From NCBI GenBank assembly GCA_017991315.1, contig JAGOQS010000001.1:682001-746000 (forward strand): a DNA stretch of 64,000 nucleotides, read 5' to 3'. The notes beneath the pieces were generated by a model that saw only the letters and a program-made list of their open reading frames with translations, did no database searches and had not been told where the DNA came from. Position numbers and translations under genes: made by a program. Below are positions 2,073-15,935 of the stretch, piece by piece. The DNA is from Ferrovibrio sp. (GTDB lineage Bacteria; Pseudomonadota; Alphaproteobacteria; Ferrovibrionales; Ferrovibrionaceae). Every line of letters starts with the position of its first letter. Within the stretch, counting starts at the first letter, position 1.

Positions 2073-2552
2073 TTATCTCTCGTGCTTTGCCCCACTACCA
2101 CTGCGGCCGGGCATCATAGCGGCAATATAACCAAGCATTCCGGGGCCGCGAGGGGGAGGGGGTATACCAAGCTCACTCTGCTCAGCGATAGCCACTCTGA
2201 TAGCCCATTCATCACATGTCGGACCGTCACCAGCAAGAATACGGTCGATAGTGGCTAATATTTCGTCTCGGACGCCGGGCTCTAGGCGTTCAAACTTTTC
2301 AAGGATCTCGGCTTGATCCAGGTCTTTGGCCCCTGAATCACGACGCCCCTGACCAGTGGCTAACCACTTAGCATTTATGCGCAGTGCTTTGCAGATTCGG
2401 AGGGCGTTTTCTAAGTTCGGCTCCGCATTAGGCCGCGTAAACATTGAGCTTAATGTGGTTTTAGGAATGCCGCTCAGTCTGGCTAACTCGGCAGGTTTCA
2501 TTTGCCGATCATCCATCGCCATCTGAATTCTTTTTACTACTGTCTCATTCAT
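2073..2552 (-). CDS. phage repressor, helix-turn-helix (CI/Xre-like)
   Basis: 159 residues. Residues about 5-60 form a Xre-type helix-turn-helix (MKPAELARLSGIPKTTLSSM followed by LENALRICKALRINAKWLA, typical of CI-like repressors). The C-terminal part lacks the Ser/Lys motifs of a LexA/CI peptidase, so induction by self-cleavage is not evident; an antirepressor or other route may act. It is divergent from the Cro-like gene, with about 70 bp between them containing the operator at 2602-2611. That arrangement and the HTH make it the likely immunity repressor, acting on both operator copies. Confidence 0.82.
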   Translation of the reverse strand: MNETVVKRIQMAMDDRQMKPAELARLSGIPKTTLSSMFTRPNAEPNLENALRICKALRINAKWLATGQGRRDSGAKDLDQAEILEKFERLEPGVRDEILATIDRILAGDGPTCDEWAIRVAIAEQSELGIPPPPRGPGMLGYIAAMMPGRSGSGAKHER

Positions 2553-10781: not shown

Positions 10782-12460
10782 CCCGCACCTATGGCCGGCT
10801 GGAACTGGGGACGAGCGCCGGCGGGCCAACTGCCTGGCGGCTGTCGACCGACGAACCGCATATCGCCATCCGGCTTAAGCAGATTTTCGCGCGCATCCCA
10901 AAGCAGATGCCATCGCCATGGATCCTGCAGCGCGACGACATGCTGGATGCCGACCTGCACTGGTTCATGCAGCGCTACCCGCTGGAGATGGATGCCAAGG
11001 CACGGAAGGCTATTGCCGAGGGCCGTGCCCGCTTCGAGCGCGACCAAGCAGAAGCTGAGCGCATCCTGCTGCCTAGCTACAAGCCTGGCGAAATTCCCGG
11101 GCTGAAACCAGGCCAGGTGGTGCGCGGCTATCAGGCCCAGGCCATCGACCTGCTGCGCCTGCGCAAGCGGCTGCTGATCGGTGACGAGGGTGGTCTTGGC
11201 AAGACCTACACAGCGACGGCTTTCCTGGCCGGCACGCCGGCGGCGCTGCCTGCCGCCATCGTGATGGATGCGCACCTGCAGACGCAATGGTCCGAGGTGA
11301 TCGAGAAATACTCCCATCTCACCTTGCATCGCATCAAGGGTACCAAGCCCTATGGCGTGCCGAAGGCGGATTGCTACCTGTTCCGCATCACCTGCCTGGC
11401 CGGCTGGGTCGATATCTTCAACATGGGGCTGTTCAGGACGGTGATATTCGACGAACCGCAGAACCTTCGCACCGGCATCGGTACGGCGAAGGGGCAGGCG
11501 GCGGCAGTGCTGGCCAGCAAGGCAATCTATCGGGCCGGCCTGAGCGCCACGCCGATCTACAATTATGGCAACGAGATGTGGAACATCGCGCAGTTCATCG
11601 ACGAAGAGGCGCTCGGCGATTCCTATGAATTCCGACGCGAATGGTGCGATGATTTTGGCAAGGTAAAGGACCCGAAGGCACTCGGCACCTACCTGCGCGA
11701 ACGGCATTTCCTGCTGCGGCGGCTGAAATCCGATGTCGGGCAGGAACTGCCCAAGGTCTCGCGCATCGTTCAGGCGGTGGATCATGACGCCGCTGCCATC
11801 GCTAATGTCGAGCAATTGGCCCGCAGCCTCGCGCTCGCAGCCACCAAAGGCAGTTTCGTCGAACGCGGCTCGGCAGCCCGCGAACTAGATCTCCGGGTGC
11901 GCCAGGCCACCGGCATCGCCAAGGCGCCATATGTCGCCAAGTTCGTGCGCATCATCGCCGAGGCTGGCGAAAAGGTGGTGCTGTGGGGCTGGCACCGCGC
12001 CGTCTATCAGATCTGGCTGAAGGAACTACAGGACCTCAAGCCGGCCATGTATACCGGCTCGGAGAGCGCCAGCCAGAAGAATGCCGCCAAGGCCGCGTTC
12101 ATGGGCGACGAGACCAACATCCTGATCATGTCGCTGCGCTCGGGCGCCGGTATAGACGGCCTGCAGCATGTCTGCTCGGTTGGTGTGTTCGGCGAGCTGG
12201 ATTGGAGCCCCGGCATACATCAGCAGTGCATCTGGCGGCTCGACCGCGACGGCCAGACCCAGCCGGTGCAGGCGTTCTTCCTGGTCTCGGACGACGGCAG
12301 CGACCCGCCGATGCAGGAGGTGCTGGGCCTCAAGGCATATGAGGCCAGCAGCATCGTGGATCCGCATCTCGGTCAACAGGCGGTTGAGAACGACACCAGC
12401 AGGATGGCGAAGTTGATCCAGCGCTATCTCGACGGCCGGCAGGCGAGGGGGGTGGCATGA
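10772..12460 (+). CDS. SNF2/DEAD-type DNA helicase
   Basis: 562 residues. Helicase domain 1: GYQAQAIDLL (Q-like motif), Walker A GDEGGLGKT near residue 137, Walker B FDEPQ near 227 and motif III LSATP. Helicase domain 2: VVLWGWHR, ILIMSLRSGAGIDGL and motif VI QCIWRLDRDGQ. The family uses ATP to remodel or unwind DNA. Overlaps the nuclease gene by 10 bp, implying a joint role in phage replication or recombination. Confidence 0.88.
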   Translation: MAVTRTYGRLELGTSAGGPTAWRLSTDEPHIAIRLKQIFARIPKQMPSPWILQRDDMLDADLHWFMQRYPLEMDAKARKAIAEGRARFERDQAEAERILLPSYKPGEIPGLKPGQVVRGYQAQAIDLLRLRKRLLIGDEGGLGKTYTATAFLAGTPAALPAAIVMDAHLQTQWSEVIEKYSHLTLHRIKGTKPYGVPKADCYLFRITCLAGWVDIFNMGLFRTVIFDEPQNLRTGIGTAKGQAAAVLASKAIYRAGLSATPIYNYGNEMWNIAQFIDEEALGDSYEFRREWCDDFGKVKDPKALGTYLRERHFLLRRLKSDVGQELPKVSRIVQAVDHDAAAIANVEQLARSLALAATKGSFVERGSAARELDLRVRQATGIAKAPYVAKFVRIIAEAGEKVVLWGWHRAVYQIWLKELQDLKPAMYTGSESASQKNAAKAAFMGDETNILIMSLRSGAGIDGLQHVCSVGVFGELDWSPGIHQQCIWRLDRDGQTQPVQAFFLVSDDGSDPPMQEVLGLKAYEASSIVDPHLGQQAVENDTSRMAKLIQRYLDGRQARGVA

Positions 12461-13980
12461 ACCTCCCAGCGAAGTTGCCTTCGAGCGAAAATCTCCCGCA
12501 TAACCTGGATGCCGAGCAGGAATTGCTGGGCGCGATCCTGGTCAACAATGAGGCCTTCGAGCGCGTCCAGGGCATCGTGCGGGTTGAGGATTTCCATTCC
12601 GAGGCGCACCGCCGCATCTTCCATGCCATCGCCCTAAAACTGGGTCGCGGTGAGGTCGCCAATCCGGTGACGCTCAAGATTTACTTCGAGAAAGACCAAC
12701 TGCTCGATGCCGTTGGCGGGTCCAAGTATCTGGTGCGGATCGCCGCCGTCGCCACCACGATCATCAATGCGATCGAATATGCCAAGGTGGTGCGGGAGCT
12801 ATCGCTACGGCGGGAATTGCTGCGCATCGCCTACCAGGCGTTCGAGCGCGCCAGCAACCCGCTGGTGGAGGAGGATTCAGGAGCGCTGGTGACCGAACTC
12901 CGCCGTGCCATCGATTCACTCGACGAAGCCGGGGATATCGAGTTTCTCTGGCATGGCGACCTGCTCAAGCGGGGCCTGGAGAAGGCCAACGACGCATACC
13001 GCCGGGGCGCGCCCATCGGCATCCCGACCGGCATCCGGGCGCTGGATGACAAGGTAGGAAGGCTTGAGAACGGCAACCTGATCCTGCTGGGTGCCAGGCC
13101 ATCGATGGGCAAGACGGCCCTCGGCCTCTTCATCGCCATCATGGCGGCGCGCTTCTTCAGGGACCAGCACCAGGACCAGCAGCAGGGTGCCAGGGCGCGC
13201 TGCGTGCTGTTCATCTCGCTCGAGATGTCTGAGGACCAGGTAGGGCAGCGCGGCCTCGCGGAAGCCAGCGGCGTCCGCTACAGCGACATGCGCAACGGCC
13301 GCCTCACCTCCGATGACGTGAGCCATATGCTGCTGGCGGCAAAGACCAACGATAGCGTGCCACTGGCCTATGTGGTTGAGCGTGGGCTGAACCTGCACAA
13401 GATCAGGCAGGCGATCCGCCGGGCCAAAGCCAAGCATGGCTGCGGGCTGGTGGTGATCGACTACCTCGGCCTTATCGAAGGTGATCAACTGCACCGTGGC
13501 CAGAATATCACCCACATGGTTGGGGAGATCAGCCGCGGCCTGAAGAAGATGGCCGGCCAGTTCGATCTCCCAATCCTGGCGCTGGCGCAGCTCAATCGCG
13601 ACCTGGAGAAGCGGGACGATAAGCGGCCCCAGCTATCCGACCTGCGCAACTCAGGCGACCTCGAGCAGGACGCAGACGATGTGTGGTTCCTGTATCGAGA
13701 CGAATATTACCTCGAGCGCAGCCAGCCACCGCCGAGCACTCCCGAATGGGAGGCCTGGGAGGAGAAGCTGAACCGTGTTGCCGGTGAAGCCGAGATCATC
13801 GTTGCCAAGAACCGCCATGGCGGGGTGGGTACGGTACGGGTCCGCATGGACGTTGCCCGCAACCAGATCCGCGCACTCGATAATCCCAGCGATCCCCGCC
13901 AGGCCACTATGGCGCTCCCCAGCGGCTCAAATAGCACACCCGATCTCCCCGACCACGCGACCGATTTTGCTCCCCTTTAA
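12457..13980 (+). CDS. replicative DNA helicase, DnaB family
   Basis: 507 residues. The N-terminal domain (LPHNLDAEQELLGAILVN) is the DnaB primase-interaction domain. The RecA-like C-terminal domain has Walker A GARPSMGKTALG (about 212), Walker B LVVIDYLGLI, the LRNSGDLEQDADDV motif and the arginine-finger region KNRHGGVGTV. It encircles and unwinds DNA at the phage fork. A 40-residue tail is phage-specific. It overlaps the SNF2 helicase gene and precedes the origin-bearing gene. Confidence 0.93.
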   Translation: MNLPAKLPSSENLPHNLDAEQELLGAILVNNEAFERVQGIVRVEDFHSEAHRRIFHAIALKLGRGEVANPVTLKIYFEKDQLLDAVGGSKYLVRIAAVATTIINAIEYAKVVRELSLRRELLRIAYQAFERASNPLVEEDSGALVTELRRAIDSLDEAGDIEFLWHGDLLKRGLEKANDAYRRGAPIGIPTGIRALDDKVGRLENGNLILLGARPSMGKTALGLFIAIMAARFFRDQHQDQQQGARARCVLFISLEMSEDQVGQRGLAEASGVRYSDMRNGRLTSDDVSHMLLAAKTNDSVPLAYVVERGLNLHKIRQAIRRAKAKHGCGLVVIDYLGLIEGDQLHRGQNITHMVGEISRGLKKMAGQFDLPILALAQLNRDLEKRDDKRPQLSDLRNSGDLEQDADDVWFLYRDEYYLERSQPPPSTPEWEAWEEKLNRVAGEAEIIVAKNRHGGVGTVRVRMDVARNQIRALDNPSDPRQATMALPSGSNSTPDLPDHATDFAPL

Positions 13981-13991
13981 GGCCCGCACCC

Positions 13992-15122
13992 ATGACCGAA
14001 CTTCCCGCACCACCCACCCCCGCCGATGCCGATCTGAAGGACTTTGCCTTCATGCCGCTCGAGGTTGGACGCCTGCTTCGGAGCAAGGCCTGGCTGATCT
14101 GCAAGCGCCGCCCAGACCTCGCCTTCTACATGCTGAACCTCTGGCTCTCGGCCTGGCACTCGGTGCCGGCGGGCTCGCTCGAGGACGATGACGACGTTTT
14201 GGCAGATATGGCGAAATGTGACCCTGCGAAGTGGGAGAAGGTGAAGAAGGACGCTCTGCGGAATTGGTACAAGGCCAGTGATGGCAATCTGTATCACCCG
14301 GTGGTGGCTGAGAAGGTCAACGAAGCATGGCAGGATAAGGCGGAATACCGCTGGAAAAAGGAAGTAGACCGCATCCGTAAGGAAAATAAGCAGCGCGCGG
14401 AAAAAGGCGAACTTCCGTTGGAATTCCCACCGAAGCCCATTCGGAATTCCGAAAGAATGGCTTCGGAATTCCAGCGGAGCGCCGATGGAATTCCAGCGGA
14501 AAACGCTCTTAAGGGAAAGGGAAAGGGAGAGGGAGAGGGAAAGGGAAAGGGAAAGGGAAAGGGAGAATCACCTACGGTGAGCGCGGGCGAGGTTTCCGAT
14601 GGAAAGCCGGATCCGTCATCGGCATCCACCAGCACCAGCCCCCTCGACCAGAACACTCCGGAGCGGCGTCTCGCGGATCGCTTCCTGGCGTTGCGCGACG
14701 AGCTCTGGCCCAACGAGGTCAGGCTTCCTTCGCCCGGGTTGACCCTGCTGAGCCAGGCCAAGGGGTTTCTCGGCGAAGAGCCGTTGCACGAGCCGCTCAT
14801 CGCCGAGGTTCTGGATCGCGGCATGCGGCAGCAGGCTGCAAACGGCCAACCGGCCCCAACCTCGCTCAAGGCCTATGGGCTTTCGATCGAGCGCGCGATT
14901 GCCAACCATCGCCAGGCGAGCAAGCCGGCAGCAGTCAATCCACGGTCGGCGCCTGCCCAGGCCGATCCCGAGCTCCTGGCCAAGCAGCGAAACCGGGCTG
15001 TGTCGCTCTTTCGCCGTGGTGTGGAGTGGAGCACCGACTTTGGCCCCGCGCCCGATCACGAGGGCTGCCTCGCGGATCACGCGGTGCTGGTCGAGCATGG
15101 CTACCGGAAGGCGGAGGCCTGA
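13992..15122 (+). CDS. DUF1376 (YdaU-like) replication initiator-like protein
   Basis: 376 residues. Residues about 15-125 match DUF1376 (FMPLEVGRLLRSKAW, AFYMLNLWLSAWHSVPAGSL, NLYHPVVAEKV), a winged-helix-like domain found in phage replication proteins. A basic helix follows, then a low-complexity GK/GE stretch (about residues 174-192) encoded by hexanucleotide repeats, and a C-terminal helical domain (RLADRFLALRDELWPNEVRL). The linker DNA contains four iterons, so I infer it binds the phage origin within its own gene, as lambda O does, and loads the DnaB-type helicase encoded immediately upstream. Confidence 0.75.
   Translation: MTELPAPPTPADADLKDFAFMPLEVGRLLRSKAWLICKRRPDLAFYMLNLWLSAWHSVPAGSLEDDDDVLADMAKCDPAKWEKVKKDALRNWYKASDGNLYHPVVAEKVNEAWQDKAEYRWKKEVDRIRKENKQRAEKGELPLEFPPKPIRNSERMASEFQRSADGIPAENALKGKGKGEGEGKGKGKGKGESPTVSAGEVSDGKPDPSSASTSTSPLDQNTPERRLADRFLALRDELWPNEVRLPSPGLTLLSQAKGFLGEEPLHEPLIAEVLDRGMRQQAANGQPAPTSLKAYGLSIERAIANHRQASKPAAVNPRSAPAQADPELLAKQRNRAVSLFRRGVEWSTDFGPAPDHEGCLADHAVLVEHGYRKAEA
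14420..14567 (+). other. putative phage replication origin: iterons plus polypurine tract
   Basis: GGAATTCC occurs four times at 14420, 14443, 14465 and 14487, spaced 23, 22 and 22 bp. The second is the centre of a 14-bp palindrome (TTCGGAATTCCGAA, 14440-14453); the third and fourth share the longer GGAATTCCAGCGGA. Sixteen bases further is a 57-nt run of purines only (14511-14567), made of nine GGGAAA/GGGAGA hexamers. Four iterons followed by a strand-asymmetric purine tract inside an initiator gene is the lambda ori layout. Confidence 0.65.
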
Positions 15123-15123
15123 C

Positions 15124-15330
15124 ATGAACGCGCAATACAGCCTCGGGCGCATGACGGGTCGCGAACCGATGTCTGCGCAGCAGTTCGAAGCCCTGAGCGC
15201 GCTCGCCTGGGAGCGGTATGGCATCCTGCTGGTGAACCCACATGATCCCCGTGCGCCCCTCACCGATCAGGAGCGGGCGGTGCTCAAGGGCTTGGGCGCC
15301 AGGCGCCACGGCAAGCGGTTCGCGCCATGA
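15124..15330 (+). CDS. small phage protein
   Basis: 68 residues from ATG 15124, one base after the previous stop. Helical, with SAQQFEALSALAWERYGILL and a basic C-terminus (LGARRHGKRFAP). No domain recognised. Stop overlaps the NusG-like start (ATGA). Confidence 0.65.
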   Translation: MNAQYSLGRMTGREPMSAQQFEALSALAWERYGILLVNPHDPRAPLTDQERAVLKGLGARRHGKRFAP

Positions 15331-15935
15331 TGCGCCCCACGCCATCCCGCCGCCCGCCAGGCCGGCCACCGAAGCCGGTGGCCCGTCCTGAGGTGCCGGA
15401 GCAGGCAAGGCCAGATGCTGGGCTGACCTGGTATGTGGTGGTGCTCAAGCCGGGTGCTGATGCGGAGAAGGCACGCCTGGGCCTGATCGCTCAGGGCTAT
15501 GCCGCGTGGTGCCCCTACGCGCTGCAGTCCCGCTACCACGCGCGCTGCCGCAGCATCGTGCTAAGGGCCTTCTGGAACCCATACCTGTTCCTGGGCGTGG
15601 CGCCCGATCAGGGTATCGATCGCGTGGCCAAGGTGCCAGCAATTGCCTCGCTGGTGCGAGACGCCAAGGGCGTGATCGTGTCGATAGAACCGGCCAAGCT
15701 CGCACATTGCTGGGATGAGCTGCAGGCCATGGGTGGCTGCTACGACCAGACGCGGGCGGGGTCGAACCGCCACCACCACGCCGATGGTACGCTGCTGCGC
15801 ATCAAGTCTGGTGCCTTCGCTGGCTTCCCCGGCCAGGTGCTCAACCACACTGGGGAAAGGCTGCGGATGCTGGTGGCGATCTTCGGTCGGCCCACCACGG
15901 TGGAGATTGACCAGTTCGAAGTCGAGCAAATGTGA
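15327..15935 (+). CDS. NusG/RfaH-like transcription (anti)termination protein
   Basis: 202 residues. A 30-residue proline-rich N-terminus precedes an NGN domain (TWYVVVLKPGADAEKARLGL, then AYLFLG-like NPYLFLGV), and a C-terminal KOW region (IKSGAFAGFPGQVLNH, RLRMLVAIFGRPTTVEIDQF). NusG paralogues bind RNA polymerase and modulate pausing and termination, often on particular operons. As the last early gene, immediately upstream of a terminator and the whole late operon, it is the probable late-gene antiterminator, in the place of lambda Q. Confidence 0.82.
   Translation: MMRPTPSRRPPGRPPKPVARPEVPEQARPDAGLTWYVVVLKPGADAEKARLGLIAQGYAAWCPYALQSRYHARCRSIVLRAFWNPYLFLGVAPDQGIDRVAKVPAIASLVRDAKGVIVSIEPAKLAHCWDELQAMGGCYDQTRAGSNRHHHADGTLLRIKSGAFAGFPGQVLNHTGERLRMLVAIFGRPTTVEIDQFEVEQM

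Follow-up and report, generated by a model that had tools for sequence, protein, structure and literature searches.

Does a phage-type gene that lies beside a helicase gene and carries a cluster of repeats in its middle also contain the origin at which its own product starts replication? The question is raised by a DUF1376 gene in the window (the whole stretch of DNA that was analysed, 64 kb), in which phased inverted repeats are followed by a G-rich purine tract. Taking the locus together with its relatives, positions 14413-14580 are, with high probability, a prophage replication origin located inside the gene of its own initiator.

A DUF1376 gene with iterons and a purine tract

The genes of the region follow a prophage-like order: repressor (2073-2552, minus strand), DNA methyltransferase, DnaB, DUF1376, antiterminator-like gene, terminase and portal. 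The DUF1376 gene (13992-15122, plus strand; PF07120, phrog_22470), for which we propose a replication initiator as product and an origin within the coding sequence, starts 11 nt past the stop codon of a DnaB-type replicative helicase gene (12457-13980, plus strand), which lies immediately 5' of it. The sequence-only reading had placed the gene directly after a DnaB-type helicase, and the matches of the upstream gene to PF00772, PF03796 and phrog_19 bear this out. The antiterminator-like gene (phrog_6386) lies at 15327-15935, shortly 3' of the initiator gene. The assembly of the host genome is 2.38 Mb large and 73% complete. No match to the DUF1376 gene (695992-697119 of the contig) was found in the one genome of the same species that was searched (G295) or in two genomes of the same genus, a pattern as for a mobile prophage. 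GC skew across the window gave nothing decisive around 14.4 kb and was dropped as an uninformative origin locator.

The DUF1376 domain comprises residues 20-109 (14049-14318, plus strand) and matches PF07120 with an E-value of 6.7e-11 and 42.9 bits, against a curated cut-off of 30.1; all 41 relatives sampled reach an E-value of 0.001 or lower, and PF07120 has matches in 0 of 14 control genomes. Among the PHROGs, two families match the window protein, both N-terminally: phrog_22470 ('replication protein', E 1.6e-25) and phrog_3992. These two, labelled 'replication protein' and 'primosomal protein', are matched by 41 of the 41 members scanned. The window protein has no match to lambda O-like families. 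Among the 41 members, O-like matches do occur: within the 25 of 34 families listed, two members match phrog_678 and one phrog_345. Single members match DnaT, Phg_2220_C or a DnaD-like loader family, and O-like or other initiation families have one to four matching members each. These extra matches would lie C-terminally. A variable remainder of the protein, joined to a constant DUF1376 domain, would suit an origin-binding module combined with interchangeable helicase-loading modules. In nine annotated phage records, a DnaB or loader gene adjoins the DUF1376 gene in three and is absent from the stretches of the other six.

An AlphaFold2 model of residues 1-135 has a mean pLDDT of 96.5 and ends in a long helix, residues 103-134. 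In a Foldseek search with the domain, MarR-type regulators and Rep initiators come out on top, with a best E-value of 0.064 and TM scores of at most 0.43 among the best 50 matches; the Rep structures 4pta, 4pt7 and 5kbj, which we take to carry the RepA_N label, score E-values of about 0.1-0.2, TM 0.31-0.43 and rmsd 9-10. A PDB sequence search with the domain profile returned just two weak, unrelated-looking chains, the best at E 0.17. The winged helix first assigned to the protein is a tentative prediction: the model is of high confidence, but no PDB match is better than E 0.064.

Within the gene, GGAATTCC occurs at 14420-14427, 14443-14450, 14465-14472 and 14487-14494, in steps of 23, 22 and 22 bp, exactly where four palindromes spaced by 22-23 bp had been reported. 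The 64-kb window contains six copies, against 1.09 +/- 1.20 expected, a number reached by 1 of 100 shuffles. In the rest of the window, no 120-nt stretch has more than one match to GGAATTCCNNNSGAA (up to two mismatches) or to TTCCNNNGGAA (up to one). Chance clustering was dismissed on the shuffle counts and the absence of like clusters elsewhere in the window. The four copies are in codon frames 2, 1, 2 and 0, that is, in all three frames, and the repeat is therefore not accounted for by the encoded amino acids. With the protein kept, the inverted-repeat score is 12, versus at most 6 across 25 synonymous-codon shuffles.

The palindrome had been taken to be the iteron itself. It is present four times, but it is a portion of a 15-bp unit, GGAATTCCnnnSGAA, in the window, and the unit conserved among relatives is TTCCnnnGGAA. 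So defined, the iterons, all on the plus strand, are GGAATTCCCACCGAA (iteron 1, 14420-14434), GGAATTCCGAAAGAA (iteron 2, 14443-14457), GGAATTCCAGCGGAG (iteron 3, 14465-14479) and GGAATTCCAGCGGAA (iteron 4, 14487-14501), the last of which contains an exact TTCCnnnGGAA. An extra exact site, TTCCGTTGGAA, lies at 14413-14423 (plus strand). The four repeats also contain EcoRI sites (GAATTC) at 14421, 14444, 14466 and 14488, so that four of the window's 28 such sites fall within 75 bp.

A 9-nt junction (14502-14510, plus strand) separates the last iteron from the purine tract (14511-14567, plus strand), which is G-rich on the coding strand and contains nine GGG runs in GGGAAA and GGGAGA hexamers; the initial description, 57 nt of pure purine in GGGAAA-type hexamers, is exact in length and composition. 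It is the only purine run of at least 30 nt in the 64 kb and the only plus-strand chain of at least four closely spaced GGG runs; the other strand has one such chain, at 2848-2867. The purine score is 57, versus at most 54 across 25 synonymous-codon shuffles that keep the protein. No AT-rich stretch adjoins the tract in the window (AT 0.25-0.45 per 20 nt), unlike lambda. A small hairpin, TCACC-TAC-GGTGA, follows the tract directly (14568-14580, plus strand) and is no better than shuffles, 52 of 200 of which fold equally well.

Iterons and tract across the family

From genomes, viral contigs and phage records, 256 DUF1376 genes were gathered. Genes running off their stretch, and those at least 85% identical to a retained one, were removed before counting, leaving 187 complete genes of less than 85% identity; the longest other ORF of each stretch served as control (n = 184). 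A scan of viral sequences with the window protein alone found no relatives, and later scans used alignments of closer relatives.

A search for iterons in other DUF1376 genes, proposed in the sequence-only reading together with the view that a lack of comparable repeats in homologous genes would tell against an origin, found phased inverted repeats and then a purine tract, at the same linker, in most genes examined. The inverted-repeat iteron score exceeds all 25 synonymous shuffles in 81/187 DUF1376 genes and in 1/184 controls. A purine score of at least 18 is reached by 165/187 DUF1376 linkers, versus 3/184 control ORFs, leaving 22 genes without a tract by this threshold; it exceeds all 25 synonymous shuffles in 96/187 genes versus 4/184 controls, and fails to do so in 91/187. 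When only one gene is taken per cluster of less than 65% identity, iterons are found in 12/29 (controls 0/28) and the tract in 23/29 (controls 0/28). Tract and an assigned iteron class, by the looser labels given below, occur together in 157/187 genes, with the tract starting about 182 residues past the domain start (10-90%: 158-196).

The family tract unit is mostly GGGACA or GGGAGA. For the 165 genes scoring at least 10 (periods 3-12), the best repeat period is 6 in 116, 5 in 16, 12 in 13, 11 in 10, 7 in 4, 3 in 4 and 10 in 2, with a period-6 score above all 40 synonymous shuffles in just 84/187 DUF1376 genes. Around the tract end, the mean AT content of the family is 0.58-0.60 in two 5-nt bins, versus a gene mean of 0.37. 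Hairpins with a stem of at least 7 follow the tract in 45/164 genes, versus 5/162 further downstream and a fraction of 0.066 in shuffles. Tetraloop hairpins with TGAC or TAAC recur after the tract, for instance in L188, L133, L014 and L053, with nine of each among 66 stems of at least 6. In two distant relatives (L017 and L018), the hexamers are ACCGGA instead of GGGANA, and TGTCCCACGGGACA or a close variant of it lies upstream. Two viral contigs, IMGVR_UViG_3300045049_000120 (L468 and L476) and IMGVR_UViG_3300049207_000026 (L382 and L426), each carry a pair of DUF1376 genes separated by about 40 kb, perhaps as tandem prophages.

By exact sites (at least two per gene), 41 genes belong to the TTCCnnnGGAA class, 24 to GTCCCnnGGGAC, 20 to CGTnACG and 9 to GTCCnnnGGAC, with 93/187 outside these classes. 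Looser labels class 175/187 genes and leave 12/187 without a class; 11 of the labels were set by eye from the DNA before residues were tested, and none of these 11 enters the exact-site counts. Family iterons are helically phased. TTCCnnnGGAA sites are spaced mainly by 21-22 bp, with further peaks at 11, 32-33 and 43-45, and the dominant spacing is 23 bp for GTCCCnnGGGAC, 22 for GTCCnnnGGAC and 12 for CGTnACG.

The distance from the last iteron to the tract could be measured in 43/47 TTCC, 55/81 TGTCCC and 28/32 GTNAC genes. In the TTCC class, to which the window belongs, it is 9 nt in 41 of the 43. Of the 55 TGTCCC genes, 25 have 9 nt, 5 have 10 and 10 have 32, the last group being as expected if a degenerate last site had been overlooked; of the 28 GTNAC genes, 11 have 7 nt, with the others spread.

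Scanning viral contigs for (GGGANA)4GGGA gave at least 120 stretches, and in 86 of the 120 listed (55/80 and 31/40) the tract lies across a DUF1376-domain ORF. Of the 34 listed stretches outside such ORFs, seven were compared with Pfam and five of the seven also with PHROGs; all five PHROGs-tested tract genes encode replication-initiation proteins. Two are of the Lin1244_N, phrog_2562 type (tracts at L315:6413-6440 and L331:6123-6150), and the others belong to phrog_1408 (L316:5688-5715, with GATCTT hexamers preceding the tract), phrog_26426 (L330:3474-3501) and phrog_5810 (L257:846-873, with the tract on the opposite strand). Because parts of the C-terminal region are common to L257, L330 and the DUF1376 families phrog_22470 and phrog_3992, the independence of L257 and L330 is partial. 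L278 and L332 seem to be the ends of truncated DUF1376 genes at a stretch border, and by eye L342 and L343 are similar to the L316 and L315 types. The remaining tract genes are unresolved or unrelated, so the GGGANA array is not exclusive to initiators.

The terminal helix and the iteron class

Residues 119-133 of the long terminal helix (encoded by 14346-14390, plus strand) are proposed as the iteron-recognition segment, based on their covariation with the iteron class. Mutual information between class (TTCC versus TGTCCC, 128 genes) and the alignment columns up to about residue 130 is highest for residues 126, 123, 129, 119 and 120, all within the terminal helix of the AlphaFold2 model (103-134); the excess is 0.74 at residue 126, versus 0.23 for the best column outside residues 112-129. 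This basic helix may resemble the basic regions of bZIP proteins. With exact-site classes, residue 126 is Asp or Glu in 41/41 TTCCnnnGGAA genes and Ala, Gly or Ser in 23/24 GTCCCnnGGGAC genes, while residue 129 is Arg in 40/41 of the former and Lys in 24/24 of the latter.

The GTCCnnnGGAC class is an intermediate, hybrid one: Arg120 (9/9) is as in the GTCCC class (19/24), and Lys123, Asp or Glu126 and Arg129 (7/9 each) are as in the TTCC class. Such a modular residue pattern is what direct readout would give. Six of eight apparent exceptions at residue 126 under the TGTCCC label belong to this hybrid class.

For a comparison at similar relatedness, 47 disjoint cross-class pairs were matched on residues 5-110, alongside 63 same-class pairs of similar identity. 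The cross-class pairs differ at residue 126 in 47/47, at 123 in 45/47 and at 129 in 44/47, versus 28/63, 22/63 and 8/63 in the same-class pairs, and residues 127 and 130 are identical in all 47. They also differ at residues 133 and 135 (47/47) and at 114, 131, 134, 136 and 137 (at least 42/47); with residues 114, 131 and 134-137 lying outside the proposed reading face or beyond the modelled helix, the signal is not limited to a few positions, and the covariation may partly reflect linked inheritance of the helix end and the neighbouring linker.

On a tree of residues 1-110, 42 class changes are required, versus 81.7 with shuffled labels. An independent-pairs test gave just two contrasts on well-supported branches of this poorly resolved tree, too few for significance, which leaves the phylogenetic independence of the covariation unproved. 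A fixed residue rule applied to 57 held-out genes agrees with strict sites in 9 of 11 decidable cases, and in 20 of 21 after a relaxation of the site definition that was made once the strict result was known; the other 36 of the 57 are undecidable, including four of a CC-type DNA class to which the protein rule gives no call. The tracts of the held-out genes (55/57) are partly selected for, since 32 of the 57 genes came from the tract-pattern scan.

Proposed origin opening, competing explanations and known systems

The family-wide iterons, the tract, the fixed spacing and the helix/iteron covariation together indicate that the DUF1376 domain most likely binds the origin by recognizing iterons within its own gene, in the manner of lambda O, and from them we infer an initiator function for the protein. 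Building on these four features of the comparison, binding, dimer formation, opening and helicase loading can be arranged in a conditional scheme. The DUF1376 protein, probably as a dimer, would contact the phased inverted-repeat iterons by inserting the long, basic helix at the end of its domain (residues 119-133 or thereabouts), and the bound protein would form an O-some-like complex spanning about 90 bp. Wrapping of the DNA could then strain the region beside the last iteron. The purine tract, 9 nt away, would open and stay open on one strand, most likely because the initiator or a loader engages the repeated G-rich single strand; transcription across the tract, with formation of an R-loop, may help. 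Finally, the variable C-terminal part may recruit DnaB, the helicase encoded by the adjacent gene. A repeated unit at a fixed offset of 9 nt is reminiscent of DnaA boxes beside DnaA-trios; single-strand engagement would be the likeliest role of the tract, with R-loop formation next.

That the tract acts mainly as an R-loop starter, with G-rich RNA that remains on the C-rich template to open the origin, and perhaps to prime, in a transcription-activated initiation, is a possibility to be taken seriously, albeit the less likely one. In its favour, 83/187 genes have chains of at least four GGG runs on the coding strand, versus 2 with such chains on the other strand, but gene direction is fixed relative to the origin, and the strand bias by itself is no proof of R-loops. 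By stability of RNA:DNA over DNA:DNA, positions 14511-14567 rank third among 63,943 plus-strand 57-mers, and in 151/165 genes the tract overlaps the 36-mer that favours the hybrid most (both calculated with nearest-neighbour values). The occurrence of unit lengths 5, 6 and 7 fits a demand on composition more than on strict register; against the R-loop reading, ACA and AGA loops are strongly preferred (284 and 95 of 430), suggesting that the sequence is read, and the template strand is the G-rich one in L257, whose initiator has a different N-terminal domain.

It is unlikely that the tract keeps the origin open by folding into a G-quadruplex on the coding strand once this is displaced. At least four GGG runs with loops of 1-4 nt are indeed present on the coding strand in 83/187 genes, versus 1/183 controls, but 58/187 genes have no coding-strand chain of even three GGG runs, and several keep purine repeats of GG or AGA only.

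Less probable again is that the iterons are operators, at which the DUF1376 protein acts as a transcription factor, repressing or activating its own operon, with the tract as a pause site or by-product and the origin elsewhere. The helix/iteron covariation by itself would indicate specific binding, not replication; however, the sites lie about 420 nt into the coding sequence with a purine tract at a fixed distance, the replication and primosome families are matched by every one of the 41 members, and a helicase or loader gene adjoins both in the window (DnaB) and in three of the nine phage records.

Very improbable is a tract with no function as DNA, be it a flexible protein linker of Gly-Lys/Gly-Gln or a microsatellite prone to slippage. 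The linker is of low complexity, slippage can lengthen tandem hexamers and about half of the genes (the 91 above) have a purine score not above all their synonymous shuffles. Yet the other 96 do exceed them, the distance to the last iteron is fixed, a like tract occurs in initiators with other N-terminal domains, and of the 127 genes with GGGANAGGGA, 105 have it in frame 2, 13 in frame 0 and 9 in frame 1, encoding different dipeptides; the codon frames and the synonymous shuffles rule out a purely protein-level linker.

Intragenic origins are a known kind. In lambda, whose helicase is that of the host, the neighbouring helicase gene of the window prophage has no counterpart of the phage's own. 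The lambda origin is situated midway along gene O, where inverted-repeat iterons adjoin the AT-rich region to be opened (PMC7466680, PMC5043065). The parallel with lambda ori drawn in the sequence-only reading holds to that extent, in another protein family: phased inverted-repeat iterons lie mid-gene in an initiator coding sequence, next to the proposed opening region. The window iterons are distinct, and a G-rich purine hexamer tract lies where lambda has its AT-rich region.

In the B. subtilis oriC, DnaA boxes lie beside DnaA-trios, which are read as single strand, and there is a DnaD recognition element (PMC10201434). The likeness is in double-strand boxes at a fixed distance from a tandem array of a short motif; the differences are that the window has no DnaA, that the G-rich units are of 5-7 nt rather than trinucleotides, and that single-strand binding is conjectural. 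The iterons of iteron plasmids are likewise phased with the helix (PMC5043065), and the weak fold similarity of the DUF1376 domain to Rep structures is a second resemblance; DUF1376 iterons differ in being inverted repeats inside the gene, and the covariation implicates the terminal helix. In ColE1, opening proceeds via RNA II and not via an iteron-binding initiator; a transcribed stretch as possible hybrid former is the shared trait, and the presence of iterons in the window the difference (PMC5043065).

A role in replication is not new in itself, as PHROGs already labels the family as 'replication protein' and 'primosomal protein'. In the parts available of the literature on DUF1376, including PMC5795418, no initiator function is shown, and searches of the literature on phage iterons, purine-rich origins, R-loops and replication modules did not find the intragenic iteron origin, the tract or the helix/iteron code. 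We lean, by a little, towards a wider proposal: DUF1376 would be a large family of phage initiators with self-encoded iterons, read by a basic helix with a simple residue-to-base code, and the fixed-distance GGGANA array would be an origin element of phages in general, present also with initiators of the Lin1244_N, phrog_1408, phrog_5810 and phrog_26426 types, in which opening relies on single-strand engagement or an R-loop and not on AT-richness. An intragenic origin of the kind proposed would give a function to a common phage domain of 'unknown function', and for many proteobacterial phages and prophages the sequence alone would suffice to locate the origin. The natural helix/iteron pairs would serve to study how initiators choose their origins, and the G-rich tract poses a testable question, how an origin is opened without an AT-rich region.
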